Assembly (NCBI GenBank): GCA_947462335.1
Contig: OX381718.1
Span: 43,400,281 to 43,464,280 of the forward strand
From: Harmothoe impar
Lineage: Eukaryota > Annelida > Polychaeta > Phyllodocida > Polynoidae
Length of the DNA: 64,000 nucleotides
Direction: 5' to 3'
The notes under the pieces were generated by a model. That model did not search any database. It was not told the DNA's origin and worked only from the letters and a program-made list of their open reading frames with translations. Positions 27,071 to 57,778 of this stretch are shown in pieces; the first letter of the stretch is position 1, and each line of letters opens with the position of its first letter. The translations under genes and the position numbers were made by a program.

Positions 27071-27699
27071 ATCCGGGGGTGGCTCACTTTGTTTGGAGAC
27101 AAGCCCCAGCTCCCGTAAGGGCTTTTTTTTTTGATTTGAGAGATGTGCATAACACATCCTCGTTTATTTATACTGAATAAAGAAAGAGCTTTTTCAGCTC
27201 GATTAACATCCTTATCCAGTGTCGTGTATATGATTTTAACCTCGTATAATATATAATATTATCAGCAATAATGCTATTGCTTATACATAGTTATTATTAC
27301 ATTAGACACATCCAAAAATATCACATCGCGATTACATCATTTCTATCATGAAAATATAGACTTTGACTATCATCGTGTACTTGGGTTGGTCTAACATTTC
27401 AAACAAACAAAGTATAAGTATATAAATATAAAGGACCGTGTTGTGAAATTACATTCTATTCCTCGATAATATCTACCTGAGTAATATTGCATGTATGTAT
27501 GACAGTAAGGGATGGGCTCCCTGTACATAAGTATTCATGTATATTCAACGCTGTGTACCGGTATATTTTCAATATGCATGGATTTACAAATTTAATGAGT
27601 AGTATGTATATGGTCGATGAATAACTCTCATCTGAGATCACATTTTTTTTTATCCATAGATAGATACAAGAATACGTATACAACTAGTGGGGGGGGGGG
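27071..27699. other. AT-rich non-coding stretch
   Basis: Includes a short poly(T) at 27126 and a G14 tract at 27689-27702 that abuts the 3' side of the LINE. No coding exon supported. Confidence 0.45.
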
Positions 27700-27759
27700 G
27701 GGAGAGAAAAAATGGGTTCGGTGGGCCTATGTCACCGAAATTTTGTAACACAGCATAGC

Positions 27760-30651
27760 TCAGAAGTACATAAAGTTGTAGTTTGTGCTACCGAGCCATT
27801 TTTTTCTATTTAAATTGAAATCCTCATACGATTCTAAATTTCTTATATTAACATCAAGACAGTTCCATAGCATGGCTCCTCTATACAGAACATTTTTTCT
27901 CCCAGTCTCATTTTTGGGCAGGTATACTTTGAACAGACTGGCATCATGCGCTCGCGTGAAAATTTGTCTAACATTTAGCATTTCTTTATTCTTCTGTTGT
28001 TTGAACATAAAATTATAAAGATGCATAATCCTCCTAGGCTTTAGCTTTGATATTTTAGCCTCCTGATGTGTCGCCACAGTGGGGTACATGTGATTGACCT
28101 TTAAACATTTCCTGAGCGCTTTGTTTTCAATCACTTGTAATCTATCTAATACATTTTTGTTTGCAATATCATAAAATATATCCCCGTAATCAGCATGGGG
28201 CAATACCATGGTCTTATAGATGTCCAGGAGGGTTTTTGTGTCCAAAAGTTCATTTAGATTTGCCAACAAATATGATTTAAAAATCATTTTTTTACAGGCT
28301 AACTCCGCTTGCATATTAAAATTTAATACTTGGTCTATCGTGACCCCTAAATATTTCACAGAAATGCATCGTTCTAATTTCTTATCGTCTAACATTAAAG
28401 AGTGGTTCACAATTTCTTTTAGCTTAGACCTGAGGCCAAAAATTATATAATTTGTTTTTTTGGCATTTAAAGTGAGCTTATTCTTACAGAACCATTTACT
28501 TAGCAATTTTAAATCCTCCTGCATATCTATTGTTAAACTCTGTAGATTTTCACCCGTTAGAGACAGTACAGTATCGTCCGCGTACAAAAAAGACGTACAA
28601 TTTTTTAACACATTTTTGAGGTCATTTATATAAGCTAAAAATAGGGTAGGGCCCAAAATTGATCCCTGGGGTACTCCACAGCTCACCTCACCTTCGTTCG
28701 AGACTATCCCATTTGCAAAAGTTTTTTGTTTTCTATTTTCTAAATAATTTTTAAGCCAATTTAGACTTGATCCCGAAATTCCCATTTTTTCCAATTTTTG
28801 TATTAAAATTAAGTGATTTACGGTATCAAAAGCTTTTTTTAGATCGATTAGTGTTGCTATTGTATATTGTCTGTTATTTAACCCTTTATATATACTATCG
28901 GTGAAGTGAGCTATGGTGTCAATTGTTGAGTGACCCTTTCTAAAACCGCCTTGGTTTTTGTCTAATAAATCATTTGACTCAAAAAAATTCATTAACTGAC
29001 TATTTACAACCTTTTCAAGCAGCTTTCCTATTACCGGTAATAGGGTTACTGGTCGTAGATTTGCAACGTCGGACTTGTCCCCCTCTTTTTGGAGAGGTAT
29101 TACCGTACCAACTTTCCAGCTGTCTGGTACCATGCCCTGAGACAAAGACAAATTAAACAACTCGACAACTTTTTCTGGAATGGCTGACAGACAGTCCTTA
29201 AGCGCCCTGGAGGAGACTCCGTCAATACTGGATGCCTTGGCTATATCAATATCTTTGATAATATTTACAACCTCTTCTAGATTTGTTTCAAAGGATAATA
29301 GCGTTGGGGCTCTAGTTTCCCCATCAAAAGACCACGGTTCAACATAATTTCTCGCTAGATTTGGCCCTATATTTAGAAAGTACTCATTTATAAAGTCAGG
29401 TGTGTTCTCATGCTCAACCGCTATATCATCAATTTTGTTAATTAATTGAAAATTTGTAGATTTTTTTTCACCCTTTACCAATTTATTTATTATTTTCCAG
29501 AATTTTTTACTATCATCCCTGTTCTCCTCCAGTGCGTCTTTCACATATTTAGCCTTTGCTTTACGTATAAACTTAACAGTGCTGTTCCGTAACCGTTTGG
29601 CTATCTCCCAATCGTCTTGAGACTTAGTTCTGATAGCCTTTTTCAGAGCACAGTCTTTATCATGTATCAGTTCCAATATGTGGTCTGTTACCCATGGAGA
29701 CCTGTCCTGTACTACCTTAAATTCTTTTACCGGGCACATAACATCAAGTTGCCTTGTTAATATATTAAGTATAAAATCCCACCTCTGATTTACATTTTCG
29801 CAATCATCATATGGTCCCCAGTCTGCACCCCTGATACAAGCTTTGAACAGATCTGTGTTATATTTCCTATATGTTCTTCCAGAGAATTTAACCTTTGTGG
29901 ATGTTTCATAGTGGTCTACTAGGGTGATACCAACGACTACATGGTCACTGATGTTCCATGCCCTGGTGAAACTTTTATATAGCTTTGACGTGTTGGTGAT
30001 CACCCAGTCTAGACATGTTGCAGTATTTTCATTGCTCCTTGTTGGAATGTCAATTAATTGTTTTAGGCCCAAAAGATTAATACAAATTTTCATTAATTTT
30101 GTTGAGACTTTGATAGGATCCAAAAAGTCAAAATTAAAATCTCCCATGATAATTAGGTCTTTACGTCTCAAATTTGCTAATTCAATTTTGTTGTTAAAAA
30201 TTTCAATAAATTTTGCCTTATCTCCATCAGGGGGTCTATAAATATTTGCAACTACAATATTTTTCTTACCATTTCTAATTAACTCTGTCCACATGATTTC
30301 CATATCATTTGTGCTAGCGTTCAAATGAGCATAACTACTGTTTGAGTACAAAACATCATTTCGAATATAGATACCCACTCCTCCACCACCCTTAATCTCC
30401 CCTTCCCCCCAGGCTCTGTCAAGCCGTTCGAATTGATACCCCCTAATATCTACCTTATGGCTTGGAACTATTTCTTCCATCCAACTCTCAGAAATTCCCA
30501 TTACAGCATCACCACAGTCTCTCATATGTATACGTAGAGTCTCAATTTTTGATCTAAGACTGCGTGTATTTAGGTGAGAGAGGGTGTAGTCATTTCTACT
30601 ACTCCTTACATAATTATCATCTCCTACAGCTATAGTATTTTTTTGCCCATT
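27760..30651 (-). CDS. LINE ORF2: APE endonuclease / reverse transcriptase
   Basis: Nicks target DNA and reverse-transcribes the element RNA at the nick. The first ATG is at 30525 (921 codons), but it lies inside the endonuclease domain: the same frame is open to 30651, and the upstream part encodes YTLSHLNTRSLRSKIETLR, the usual endonuclease N-terminus with its catalytic Asn. Counting from the ATG, ISESW is at 11-15, GDFNFDF at 128-134, SDH at 193-195, the RT domain at about 465-735 with DLKKAFDTVNH at 561-571, GVPQGSILGP at 617-626, and catalytic YADD at 648-651. No ATG precedes the endonuclease, so initiation may be non-AUG, by reinitiation, or the start codon was lost. No RNase H is visible. 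Confidence 0.92.
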   Translation of the reverse strand, partial: NGQKNTIAVGDDNYVRSSRNDYTLSHLNTRSLRSKIETLRIHMRDCGDAVMGISESWMEEIVPSHKVDIRGYQFERLDRAWGEGEIKGGGGVGIYIRNDVLYSNSSYAHLNASTNDMEIMWTELIRNGKKNIVVANIYRPPDGDKAKFIEIFNNKIELANLRRKDLIIMGDFNFDFLDPIKVSTKLMKICINLLGLKQLIDIPTRSNENTATCLDWVITNTSKLYKSFTRAWNISDHVVVGITLVDHYETSTKVKFSGRTYRKYNTDLFKACIRGADWGPYDDCENVNQRWDFILNILTRQLDVMCPVKEFKVVQDRSPWVTDHILELIHDKDCALKKAIRTKSQDDWEIAKRLRNSTVKFIRKAKAKYVKDALEENRDDSKKFWKIINKLVKGEKKSTNFQLINKIDDIAVEHENTPDFINEYFLNIGPNLARNYVEPWSFDGETRAPTLLSFETNLEEVVNIIKDIDIAKASSIDGVSSRALKDCLSAIPEKVVELFNLSLSQGMVPDSWKVGTVIPLQKEGDKSDVANLRPVTLLPVIGKLLEKVVNSQLMNFFESNDLLDKNQGGFRKGHSTIDTIAHFTDSIYKGLNNRQYTIATLIDLKKAFDTVNHLILIQKLEKMGISGSSLNWLKNYLENRKQKTFANGIVSNEGEVSCGVPQGSILGPTLFLAYINDLKNVLKNCTSFLYADDTVLSLTGENLQSLTIDMQEDLKLLSKWFCKNKLTLNAKKTNYIIFGLRSKLKEIVNHSLMLDDKKLERCISVKYLGVTIDQVLNFNMQAELACKKMIFKSYLLANLNELLDTKTLLDIYKTMVLPHADYGDIFYDIANKNVLDRLQVIENKALRKCLKVNHMYPTVATHQEAKISKLKPRRIMHLYNFMFKQQKNKEMLNVRQIFTRAHDASLFKVYLPKNETGRKNVLYRGAMLWNCLDVNIRNLESYEDFNLNRKKWLGSTNYNFMYF

Positions 30652-31229
30652 TTACATACATAATACATACACAAATTTCATTTAAATCGGACATTAGTAG
30701 GTATGGGTGTCTAGCACCACCTACCAGTGGGGTATTTCTACCCATTACGAGGTATAGTGACTCCTTAACAGTGGAGTGAGTGCAGCTAGGCTACTAACAC
30801 ACTTAGTTAACATTTTACATTTCATTTACTAAATTCTTAGCTACCCTTTGTAACAGCAAATCAATGTACATACAAGTGCCTACAGAAATATAAATAATTT
30901 TTTTTTTTTTTTTTCGCTAGAAATACCGTATACTCATCGTCCTAACACACAAGTTAGCTCTGCCCCTCCATCTCTCGGGGAGTGTGGAGACCATAATTTC
31001 ATTTGATTCACTTTTGAGCCGTCAGGTGGCGCCTCTGTTCTGTACCGCGCTGACCCTGCTCTCGTACATAGCCTATGTTTGCGTCTGCTCTGTCTTATCA
31101 TAGTAAGGCCTAAATACATACAATCTATTAGGAATTTAAACAATAAATACTTTTAGCCTTGGTGTGTACGCTTCAGGTTTCATAATTAATTACTCATGGT
31201 TTACAGGCATATGGGACAACAAGAATCTC
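30652..31229. other. LINE inter-ORF spacer
   Basis: 578 bp between ORF1 and ORF2, with a T-run on the plus strand (A-run in element RNA) at about 30898-30914. Longer than the usual short spacers; it may include a small insertion ending in that A-run. Confidence 0.6.
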
Positions 31230-32597
31230 TTATAGTAGCTTCATTTTTTCCCTTACTTTTACCAATAGATCCCCCATTCTATTGCTCTCATTGGAAGCGT
31301 TTGGGTCGATGTTATCTATATTAGATATGGTTTGCCCACATCCCCAGCCTTTTTCTGTCGTGCATTCCCAAAGTCTGCCTTTTGAAGCTATCAGCAAGTC
31401 TCCCAGTGAATCGTCCTGCATAAACTTCATCTCGATGACCTCTTCCATAATTTCATATTTGATAACCGTATCGTCTTTGGTCTTCTTGATCCTATGTGAG
31501 AGTTTTTTTGCTTCGTAGCCGTCTGAAGAACTTGCAATCTCTGCCGCTGTTGTGGTGTCCCCATGGAATGTAGCCAGCATGTACCAGTAGAGCTGCTCGC
31601 TGGACGTCCAAGTGATGCGATCGTATGAGATGGTACAGGGATACATATTTGACAGGTAGGCATGGTGACTTTGGAACGCTGTTCCGTGCTCAAACTCAAT
31701 CAGTTTAGCTGCTTTTAGTGTTATACCTATGGGAAGATCTTTCACGTCCTTGTAGTAGTATGTTCTACCCGCATCATTCTCCAGTTTGTTCCCTTTAAGC
31801 CTTAATGTTAGGTTGTGATATGCTCCCAGCGCAGACAGGCATCTCAGGTCCTTCCTCTCAGCTTGTTGTTCGACTGTTAAGTCATCAGAAATATAGACTT
31901 TCTTCCATTTGGGGAGGTGTCTCATTTTATTTACATTTTGAAACAATGCAATCTTGTTGTCCATGTCTTTGTAGCGTATAAGGATATTTCGGGGTGACTG
32001 TGGGTTTGCTCTTACCCTACCTATTCGAAAGGCACTCTCCAGGCCTATCTTTACCCCAGCAGCCACTGCTCCAATGTCAACCATCAGATTATGAACAATT
32101 TTCCTTGGGGTTTCTCCAGCCACCTCCGGTACCCCCTCTATGATAATGTTTTTACGTTTAGCTGCTTCCTCAACATGTCTTATCCTCTCTCTATCCTTCA
32201 TGCTAGACCAACGTAGGCGTGAGTTGTCCATCTGCAGTTGTTTTCTGTCCGCTTCCCCCTCTGTCAATCGGCGCTCTGCGCTGTCACACCGACCTTTTAA
32301 CAACTTAACCTCTTCCAGCATATCTGTCATATGGTCTTCTGCCTTAGCTATATGAGAGTTCATAGTGGTTGAATTAGCTGCTATGGTAGCCTCTAATCCC
32401 TCAAATTTAGTAACCATACTTAGATTTGACGCTGTCATGGCTTGCATCGATTCTAGTAGTTGTTTGTTTACATCTGACGCCCCAGGCTGGACTGCTGCCG
32501 GAGTACCGTCCCCCTCTGTCACCGCGTCTCCTCCACCTCTGCCCGCTCCTCGCCTACCTCCGGACCTTCCACCTCTCTTTTCTTCAGTAGCACTCAT
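31230..32597 (-). CDS. LINE ORF1: coiled coil, RRM-like domain, NADAR domain
   Basis: 455 codons from ATG at 32597. Order: Arg/Gly-rich basic N-terminus (1-24); low-complexity linker; coiled coil (about 45-145, heptad-like, e.g. MLEEVKLLKGRCDSAERRL); RRM-like domain (about 147-235) with RKNIIIEGVPE and PRNILIRYKD as RNP-like strands; C-terminal RNA-binding domain (about 236-285), as in L1-type ORF1 chaperones that coat the element RNA. Residues about 300-453 match the NADAR layout: AYLSNMYPCTISYD (313-326), TWTSSEQLYWYM (329-340), AKKL, MEEVIEMKFMQDDSLGDLL, and WGCG (418-421). NADAR (YbiA-type) proteins act on N-glycosidic bonds of riboflavin intermediates or ADP-ribosylated guanine. The SN-x-Y-P and SSE motifs are kept; the acidic residue usual before the C-terminal WG appears replaced by Lys. 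The stop-free state argues for selection. Confidence 0.85.
   Translation of the reverse strand: MSATEEKRGGRSGGRRGAGRGGGDAVTEGDGTPAAVQPGASDVNKQLLESMQAMTASNLSMVTKFEGLEATIAANSTTMNSHIAKAEDHMTDMLEEVKLLKGRCDSAERRLTEGEADRKQLQMDNSRLRWSSMKDRERIRHVEEAAKRKNIIIEGVPEVAGETPRKIVHNLMVDIGAVAAGVKIGLESAFRIGRVRANPQSPRNILIRYKDMDNKIALFQNVNKMRHLPKWKKVYISDDLTVEQQAERKDLRCLSALGAYHNLTLRLKGNKLENDAGRTYYYKDVKDLPIGITLKAAKLIEFEHGTAFQSHHAYLSNMYPCTISYDRITWTSSEQLYWYMLATFHGDTTTAAEIASSSDGYEAKKLSHRIKKTKDDTVIKYEIMEEVIEMKFMQDDSLGDLLIASKGRLWECTTEKGWGCGQTISNIDNIDPNASNESNRMGDLLVKVREKMKLL
31233..31700 (-). other. NADAR domain region within ORF1
   Basis: Sub-region of ORF1 (residues about 300-455). The domain call is from motif order and spacing, not from a computed profile. 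Confidence 0.75.
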
Positions 32598-32760
32598 AAT
32601 TAGGCTAAATATGGTGTCCTATGGTGAGTACACTACCTTTATGAAGCTCTGTGTGGATATATGACTGGGTATCCGTTCTGCAAGTGCTCAAAAAAGCGTG
32701 TTTTCGCCGCTGTCGCTCGAGTCCTAACTGCTGGTGTCGGCCATCTTGTTCTTCTAGTGG
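32598..32760 (-). promoter_or_regulatory. LINE 5' UTR / internal promoter region
   Basis: Contains CAAGATGGC (32748-32740), the YY1 core that also sits at the 5' end of mammalian L1, within the context CAAGATGGCCGACACCAGC. Its ATG opens a six-codon upstream frame (MADTSS, stop). CpGs are locally enriched (32700-32720). Confidence 0.5.
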
Positions 32761-33711
32761 TGCTGTTACCTAAAGGTGCCTCCCCATGGGAATAACGGCT
32801 CTTGAGGTGAATTTAGGCGCAGCTTGTTAAAGGCCCAACTCTTACTGGCCCTCATGCAATAGTCTGAGTAGAGCGGGGACCGATACCCCCCCCCCCCCCG
32901 CCCGCCTCCACCGCCTTCCCTTTTGGAGAACAATTAAGATTTTTATAATTATATGGTGGCTCACTTATCGTTCTGAAATCATGGATATGATGGTGATGCC
33001 TGTATATAAGTGTGACTATAATACCGTCATTGGTCACTTCTGCCTCCAAGAAAACAGCCAGTTGTCAGAGTCGGACAGGCCTGCTGGGACTAACTGAAAA
33101 AGGTGCTTTGACAAAACAGCATATATCTTGCGTAGTCTTAATAGGCATATACCGCGTAGTCTGGGCTATTAGTGCTGCTCTATCCCTCTAAATGTCGACA
33201 CAATCTCTCCCAATAACAGGGGTATAATAGTTGTTTTATATCGGAGGCTCTGACCAAGAGCCCCCTTTTCATTGTTCTTTTTCCTCTATCAAACTGATAA
33301 AAAGGGTATATCCTGTAGTCTTCATAGGCATAGACCACATAGTCTTGGGCCTCCTTTGTAGTCTGCTCTATCGCTCTTTGTCAAGGGGCTATTTTCAGTT
33401 AGTTCCTTCTTCAGACATATACCTCCTACTGCGAAGCGATATGCATGTAGAGAACATGGCTGACGCTCATATTTTTCCTCAGTGTAGGAATTAATATAGA
33501 CCAGTTCTACAGTTATAGTTTTGTAAGAGACACTGAGGAGGAGGTAGGGGGTCGACGAGGACTTGGGGAGCGGGCGGGGTCTTGTCAAAGCGCCATGGGC
33601 ATGGTGATTGAAGCGCAGGATTGAGGTTTACCTTCAAGGGATTCACAAATGGGGCAGGTCTGGCAGGGAGGGGTGCTCCAGTAAGTAGATAGATATATCA
33701 GAGGAGCTGTA
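32761..33711. other. Non-coding stretch
   Basis: Holds a C-run (about 32887-32898). No exon supported. Confidence 0.4.
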
Positions 33712-57465: not shown

Positions 57466-57778
57466 ACCATCCCTCCTCCAGGGTTCCCTATCTCTCCTCC
57501 AGGGTCCCCCACCCCTCCTCCAGGGTCCCCTATCCCTCCTCCGGGGTCCCCTATCCCTCCTCCAGGGTCCCCTATCCCTCTTCCAGGGTCCCCTACCCCT
57601 CCTCCGGGGTCCCCTATCCCTCCTCCAGTGTCCCCCATCCCTCCTCCAGGGTCCCCCACCCCTCCTCCATCTCAACCTTTCCCCTCCTGCAGGTCCCCTA
57701 TTCCTCCCCTATTTGTACCCTCAGTGTTCCTCATCCCTCCTCCAGGGTCCCCCATCCCTCCTCCAGTGTCCCACATCT
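57466..57778. repeat. 21 bp minisatellite, CCCTCCTCCAGGGTCCC unit
   Basis: About 12 units at 57471-57680 and 57735-57775 with an interruption near 57680-57730. The period is a multiple of three, so frames stay open on both strands (proline-rich one way, glycine-rich the other); no splice or start context suggests it is coding. Confidence 0.9.

Follow-up and report, generated by a model that had tools for sequence, protein, structure and literature searches.

A C-terminal NADAR domain in the ORF1 protein of LINE retrotransposons from the annelid Harmothoe impar

What does a NADAR domain do at the end of the RNA-binding protein of a LINE? The question arises from a 64,000-nucleotide stretch of the Harmothoe impar genome (the window), in which the first-pass annotation described a LINE ORF1 protein with coiled-coil, RRM-like and C-terminal RNA-binding parts followed by a NADAR/YbiA domain. 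We examined the element, its copies and lineage, the selection acting on the domain, and the residues that would form its active site.

The LINE in the window and its ORF1 protein

The window contains a near-complete LINE (Table 1), the ends of which are defined by alignments to other copies that begin at window position 32755 (L029) or 32764 (L030) and end at 27125 and 27126. ORF1 is open in all three copies compared (the window, L029 and L030), and its linkage to ORF2 is seen within the H. impar genome, where the window and L030 align over 5658 columns across both ORFs. Only an endonuclease and a reverse transcriptase were detected in ORF2 by Pfam (Exo_endo_phos, E 8.4e-08; RVT_1, E 2.2e-37). 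None of the three copies is clearly whole because of defects in ORF2: in the window the first in-frame ATG falls behind the first endonuclease motif, with no earlier ATG in frame, L029 is missing an internal stretch, and L030 has ORF2 split into several frames, with an ATG opening a 119-codon frame that contains the first endonuclease motif. A 12-base direct repeat (32966..32955 and 27089..27078) was considered as a target-site duplication and rejected as a chance match, since it lies outside the copy-defined boundaries. The 5' end of the LINE bears CAAGATGGCCG (32738-32748, minus strand), which we take to resemble the YY1 site that opens the 5' UTR of human L1. Elsewhere in the window, positions 57469-57777 hold a 21-base minisatellite of 11.4 copies, together with a second short array.

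Table 1. Positions, within the window, of the LINE, its reading frames, and the domains and selected residues of its ORF1 protein.
Feature	Position	Strand	Description
LINE element	27123..32755	-	length about 5.63 kb, from a 5' end near 32755 to the A-run 27132..27123 at the 3' end
ORF1	31230..32597	-	455 aa plus stop; first ORF of the LINE
Coiled-coil helix	32163..32474	-	ORF1 residues 42-145; AlphaFold2 model
RRM-like domain	31875..32159	-	ORF1 residues about 147-241
C-terminal domain (CTD), L1 ORF1p kind	31716..31874	-	ORF1 residues about 242-294
NADAR/YbiA domain	31233..31715	-	ORF1 residues about 295-455
E334	31596..31598	-	equivalent of 8bau E43 and E. coli C7 E88; kept
L341	31575..31577	-	place of 8bau K50 and E. 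coli C7 K95; lysine absent
E411	31365..31367	-	equivalent of 8bau E125, the YbiA-family glutamate (last strand); kept
ORF2 open frame	27760..30651	-	APE-type endonuclease and reverse transcriptase; first in-frame ATG 30525 (921 aa)

The Pfam NADAR profile scored 64 bits against ORF1 residues 310-452 (curated cut-off 35.1), and structure comparison assigned the domain to the YbiA fold. The proposed C-terminal NADAR domain thus held up in two of the checks that the first-pass annotation had suggested, a profile search and a structural comparison with YbiA, and it recurs in many copies and several LINE families. The three preceding parts were likewise recovered, by a single-chain AlphaFold2 model and by matches to human LINE-1 ORF1p structures (2yko, 2ykp and 2w7a): a coiled coil, one RRM and a CTD, in the order of type II (LINE-1-like) ORF1 proteins and of human ORF1p itself. 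The solved human chains match only window ORF1 residues about 100-299. PF02994 (Transposase_22) gave no score for window ORF1 in the Pfam scan, and a genome search with it gave zero matches at ORF1 loci and likewise zero at the controls. NADAR scored in all 14 aligned ORF1 proteins (the window and P0001-P0013) and, in the window and P0001-P0009, follows the RRM/CTD immediately. To our knowledge, human LINE-1 ORF1p carries no NADAR domain. Judged from sequence and model, the window ORF1 protein is best explained as a type II, predicted RNA-packaging protein that permanently carries a YbiA-type NADAR as its fourth component.

Copies, lineages and selection

A search of the 1.51-Gb genome with the whole ORF1 scored 93 matches among 3521 candidates, a lower bound, and 90 of the 93 extend to residue 410 or beyond. 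Seven full-length open copies, the window included, share 93-100% identity and lie on five large contigs; other relatives are 43-85% identical, in groups near 83, 57, 52 and 44%. A domain confined to a single copy, the finding that would have spoken against the fusion, is therefore not what the genome contains. The Pfam NADAR profile scored at least 150 loci among 3484 candidates, all above the cut-off and spread over 18 large and four small contigs, and none of these 150 starts within 3 kb of any of the 93 ORF1 matches.

We inspected 27 distinct NADAR loci, comprising 20 hand-picked from the 150 for varied open-frame lengths and scores, together with L001-L008 (L005 and L009 are one and the same locus). 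LINE ORF2 frames follow the NADAR frame in 22 loci, one has a LINE-like ORF1 followed by another retroelement, and four are without a LINE frame. Among the 20 picked loci, a LINE-type reverse transcriptase lies behind the NADAR in 19 (weakly so in L016, at 19 bits). L006-L008, outside these 20, hold additional ORF1s like that of L009, each followed by the start of an ORF2. The exception among the 20 is L015, where a NADAR ORF1 like that of L014 precedes what by eye is a different retroelement (L015:4734-9378:+); its frames look DIRS-type, comprising a tyrosine-recombinase-like frame besides a reverse transcriptase, and may be a nested insertion. L001-L004 are the best four NADAR-family matches (150-178 bits), with short frames and no LINE frame of at least 200 codons within the 3.45 kb examined. 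L001 lies on C19 and L002-L004 lie within 30 kb at C21:30056293-30086070; all four are probably host genes, the latter three probably a tandem cluster. In genomes of this kind, most NADARs may reside in retrotransposons. L011, L018 and L019 have ORF1 frames of 1153-1327 codons, and in each the NADAR falls within the final quarter.

The NADAR-bearing LINEs belong to more than one lineage. Window ORF2 scored 49.8 bits against human L1 ORF2p, over the reverse transcriptase region only, and 50.8 bits against R2, scores that mark it as not L1/Tx1-like. In contrast, L012 ORF2 is L1/Tx1-like, matching human L1 ORF2p with 344 bits over residues 3-1167 of 1257, and the L028 reverse transcriptase groups with that of L012 (100/100); a piece of L022 ORF2 scored 91 bits against L1 and 67 against R2. 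We infer that the window LINE is CR1/L2-like, its reverse transcriptase being 41% identical to that of L009 and placed without support in a tree without named CR1/L2 references. Human LINE-1, for all the likeness of its ORF1p, has an ORF2 partner from another lineage. An RRM-CTD profile built from the window and P0001-P0013 matched 18 of 20 other ORF1s at E < 0.01 and 16 at E < 1e-5, E-values that refer to a search of 20 sequences. Because the matches include the L1-like L012 and L028, one kind of NADAR-ORF1 is common to LINEs of distant ORF2 lineages, in keeping with the accessible text of PMC4120745, where ORF1 of CR1 and L2 elements is described as evolving reticulately. Trees of the reverse transcriptase and the NADAR agree in most shallow clusters, with L010 placed differently; deeper branching is poorly supported, with long branches coming together under a midpoint root, and the NADAR may have been captured once or several times.

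Two of the 20 ORF1s, L016 and L022, gave no match to the RRM-CTD profile. Both (L016:2401-4062:+ and L022, on the minus strand) have a NADAR ORF1 without a recognizable RRM-CTD and with about 200 residues behind the domain, perhaps a separate capture. In 10 of 20 loci (L010, L013, L014, L017, L018, L020, L023, L024, L025 and L027), ORF2 is separated from the NADAR ORF1 by one or two additional ORFs of 223-293 codons. By eye, many begin with a nearby GDSR-, GDDR- or DDR-like motif and some have a DG-x-HP toward their end, like SGNH hydrolases; Pfam returned no significant match (the GDSL profile reached only E 0.15, in L018), leaving an SGNH esterase as a motif-based guess.

The first-pass annotation had also called for dN/dS across the domain, and the ratios obtained are low: 0.03-0.07 for the NADAR in the 11 window-clade pairs whose NADAR dS is below 1, 0.00-0.03 for the RRM-CTD in seven pairs with dS below 1, and 0.02-0.16 for the N-terminal part in 11 pairs. 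Most of the 55 window-clade pairs are saturated for dS in some part, and ratios at dS above 1 (up to 0.29 for the NADAR) were not used. Against the distant relatives P0005-P0009, the NADAR is 35-41% identical and the RRM 27-28%. In other LINE families, NADAR dN is 0.05-0.45 across 10 pairs, dN alone being usable because NADAR dS is saturated in nine; in the pair L014/L015 the NADAR diverged faster than the 200 residues preceding it. On these substitution patterns, the domain is retained by the element under purifying selection and is no passenger.

The active site and a candidate function

In the Phytophthora nicotianae NADAR structure 8bau, as given in the available portion of PMC11543638, E43 and E125 hold the distal ribose, and K50, R79, W89, R93 and W133 hold the pyrophosphate; for E. 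coli C7 NADAR the same portion reports that the lysine is essential and that, in vitro, only arginine can substitute for it. The equivalents of E43 and E125 are present in 33 of 33 aligned rows (20 other LINE NADARs, four solo genes, P0010, P0011 and seven window-clade rows) and in all 11 copies of the window clade in the genome. At the K50 place, 18 of the 20 other LINE NADARs have K and two have R, and K is also found in the four solo genes and P0010-P0013; in the other LINE families examined, the active-site residues would allow an enzyme. The window clade is non-basic there in 11 of 11 copies (L in seven, F in two, and one each of V and I) and in P0001-P0009, the seven aligned rows having L, M, Y or V, and P0006, P0007 and P0009, read apart from those rows, having M. 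The clade therefore lacks the basic residue at K50/K95 expected of catalytically competent guanosine-ADP-ribose NADAR hydrolases. A K or R stands one position ahead of this place in five of the 20 clade members (11 own-genome copies and P0001-P0009), namely P0002, P0003, P0007, L037 and L038, where it might stand in for the lysine; the window, P0001 and L029-L036 have neither.

Other ligand-contacting positions are altered as well. S occupies the G78 place and H or Y the R79 place in 11 of 11 window-clade copies, the latter change saying little alone because R79 is kept in just one of the 20 other LINE NADARs. W89 is lost in five of seven window-clade rows and kept in all 20 other LINE NADARs, and the equivalents of K75 and W133 are each kept in 11 of 11 copies. 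Together, the changes at K50, G78, R79 and W89 suggest that ADP-ribose binding may be gone in the window clade. A tree of 40 NADAR domains, 26 with the basic residue and 14 without, places the difference at one change (support 100/99; 100% of 200 bootstrap trees); with a midpoint root, this would be a loss of lysine and not a gain elsewhere, as lysine is present in the solo genes and in characterized NADARs. A binding-only role, raised as an alternative in the first-pass annotation, gains weight from these data, although the change concerned is the one at the K50 place and not the one named there, near the usual acidic residue before WG. In residues 304-320, around GTAFQSHHAYLSNM, identity to the window is 88-94% for P0001-P0009 and 29% for P0010-P0012, and the segment may mark a changed ligand or interface.

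These observations lead us to favor, at a probability of about 0.45, a reading in which the NADAR acts on the ribonucleoprotein of its own element. NADARs act on guanosine-ADP-ribose in DNA and RNA and require the lysine, according to the accessible parts of PMC11543638 and PMC11833690; all links to ADP-ribosylation drawn here are through relatives about 22-26% identical. Coating its own RNA, a LINE protein with a NADAR would be placed to clear or read guanine ADP-ribose. The RRM/CTD would tether the NADAR to LINE RNA, the NADAR would recognize guanines in the element's RNA or cDNA that bear ADP-ribose, and for most LINE families it would also remove the modification. In the window clade, the phosphate-binding lysine is gone and selection has kept the domain since, the two retained glutamates most likely still holding a ribosylated ligand; a binder or a slow, re-specialized enzyme is our best guess here, because the residues oppose the known chemistry, whereas purifying selection points to a function. 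The effect would be to protect the element from a host opponent. In place of the host PARP-type antiviral enzymes first suggested, a guanine-specific transferase like clam CARP-1 may be the better candidate; clams have a DNA guanine-N2 ADP-ribosylating activity, from which the purified enzyme is CARP-1 (PMC11209040, in the part available).

Three alternatives would assign the domain a different task, and a fourth would assign it none. The NADAR could serve the LINE particle structurally or by binding RNA, without any ADP-ribose ligand, which is possible but doubtful. Its position right behind the RRM/CTD and the altered ligand-contacting residues of the window clade agree with this, and an RNA role without ADP-ribose is conceivable because nematode SNA-3 NADARs serve trans-splicing with substrate and chemistry unknown (PMC9303266, as far as its available text goes); a purely structural domain would, however, have no need of both ribose-coordinating glutamates, which all rows keep, and the 20 other LINE NADARs retain the basic residue too. 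Conversely, the window-clade NADAR could still be an efficient guanosine-ADP-ribose hydrolase whose phosphate binding comes from elsewhere, such as the conserved QSHH stretch, the neighboring basic residue of some members, or the RNA-binding core. The invariant glutamates, K75 equivalent and W133, the conservation of residues 304-320, the strong purifying selection and the K or R one position earlier in a quarter of members all point that way, yet the essential lysine is replaced by hydrophobic or aromatic residues and G78 and W89 are changed, and we consider an efficient hydrolase distinctly unlikely.

A metabolite N-glycosidase acting, like YbiA, on riboflavin intermediates and carried for a metabolic reason is very improbable: such an activity has been reported for YbiA, as related in the available text of PMC9303266, but a metabolic role would not explain why several LINE families have the domain joined to an RNA-packaging protein. 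A chance capture or an artefact of assembly is practically negligible in the face of seven open copies on five large contigs, their more distant relatives and dN/dS far below 1. Beyond the favored action on the element's own ribonucleoprotein lies the broader idea, which we regard as unlikely, of a eukaryotic counterpart of phage antitoxins, in which LINEs of several lineages would carry, in ORF1p, a guanosine-ADP-ribose hydrolase that frees their RNA or cDNA of ADP-ribose made by the host, and one clade would have become a reader or decoy after losing the lysine. If this were true, some invertebrates would employ ADP-ribosylation of guanine to combat mobile elements. The possibility that nucleic-acid ADP-ribosylation adds a layer of transposon control can now be tested directly, with the lysine-keeping families and the lysine-lacking clade, which selection has kept, as a natural experiment on eraser versus reader.

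Relation to described systems

The first-pass annotation left open whether the fusion had been described. It is already known: one sentence in PMC12477816, as far as that paper was available, places a NADAR in ORF1 of Tx1 LINEs from the Pacific oyster Crassostrea gigas, and this was the only earlier mention of a NADAR in a LINE ORF1 among the matches listed in a search of mostly open literature, outside bioRxiv and Repbase. The oyster elements resemble the window LINE in having a YbiA-family NADAR in ORF1, and L012 and L028 look to be of the same kind; the window LINE differs in an ORF2 that is not L1/Tx1-like and in a NADAR without the lysine. The oyster passage contains no active-site analysis, copy numbers or selection. 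As far as the literature searched tells, the fusion in a non-L1/Tx1 LINE, its abundance within a single genome, the selection analysis, the fold and the lysine-lacking clade are new.

Compared with E. coli C7 NADAR and 8bau, as described in the accessible part of PMC11543638, the window domain lacks the K50/K95 equivalent and is fused to an RNA-binding LINE protein. Nematode SNA-3, in the portion of PMC9303266 available, is likewise an animal protein in which NADAR works with RNA; it differs in having three NADARs, in being a host gene and in serving spliced-leader trans-splicing. Algal LTR elements are also retrotransposons with a conserved YbiA-family NADAR, differing in their LTR type, in the location of the domain in Pol and in their algal host.
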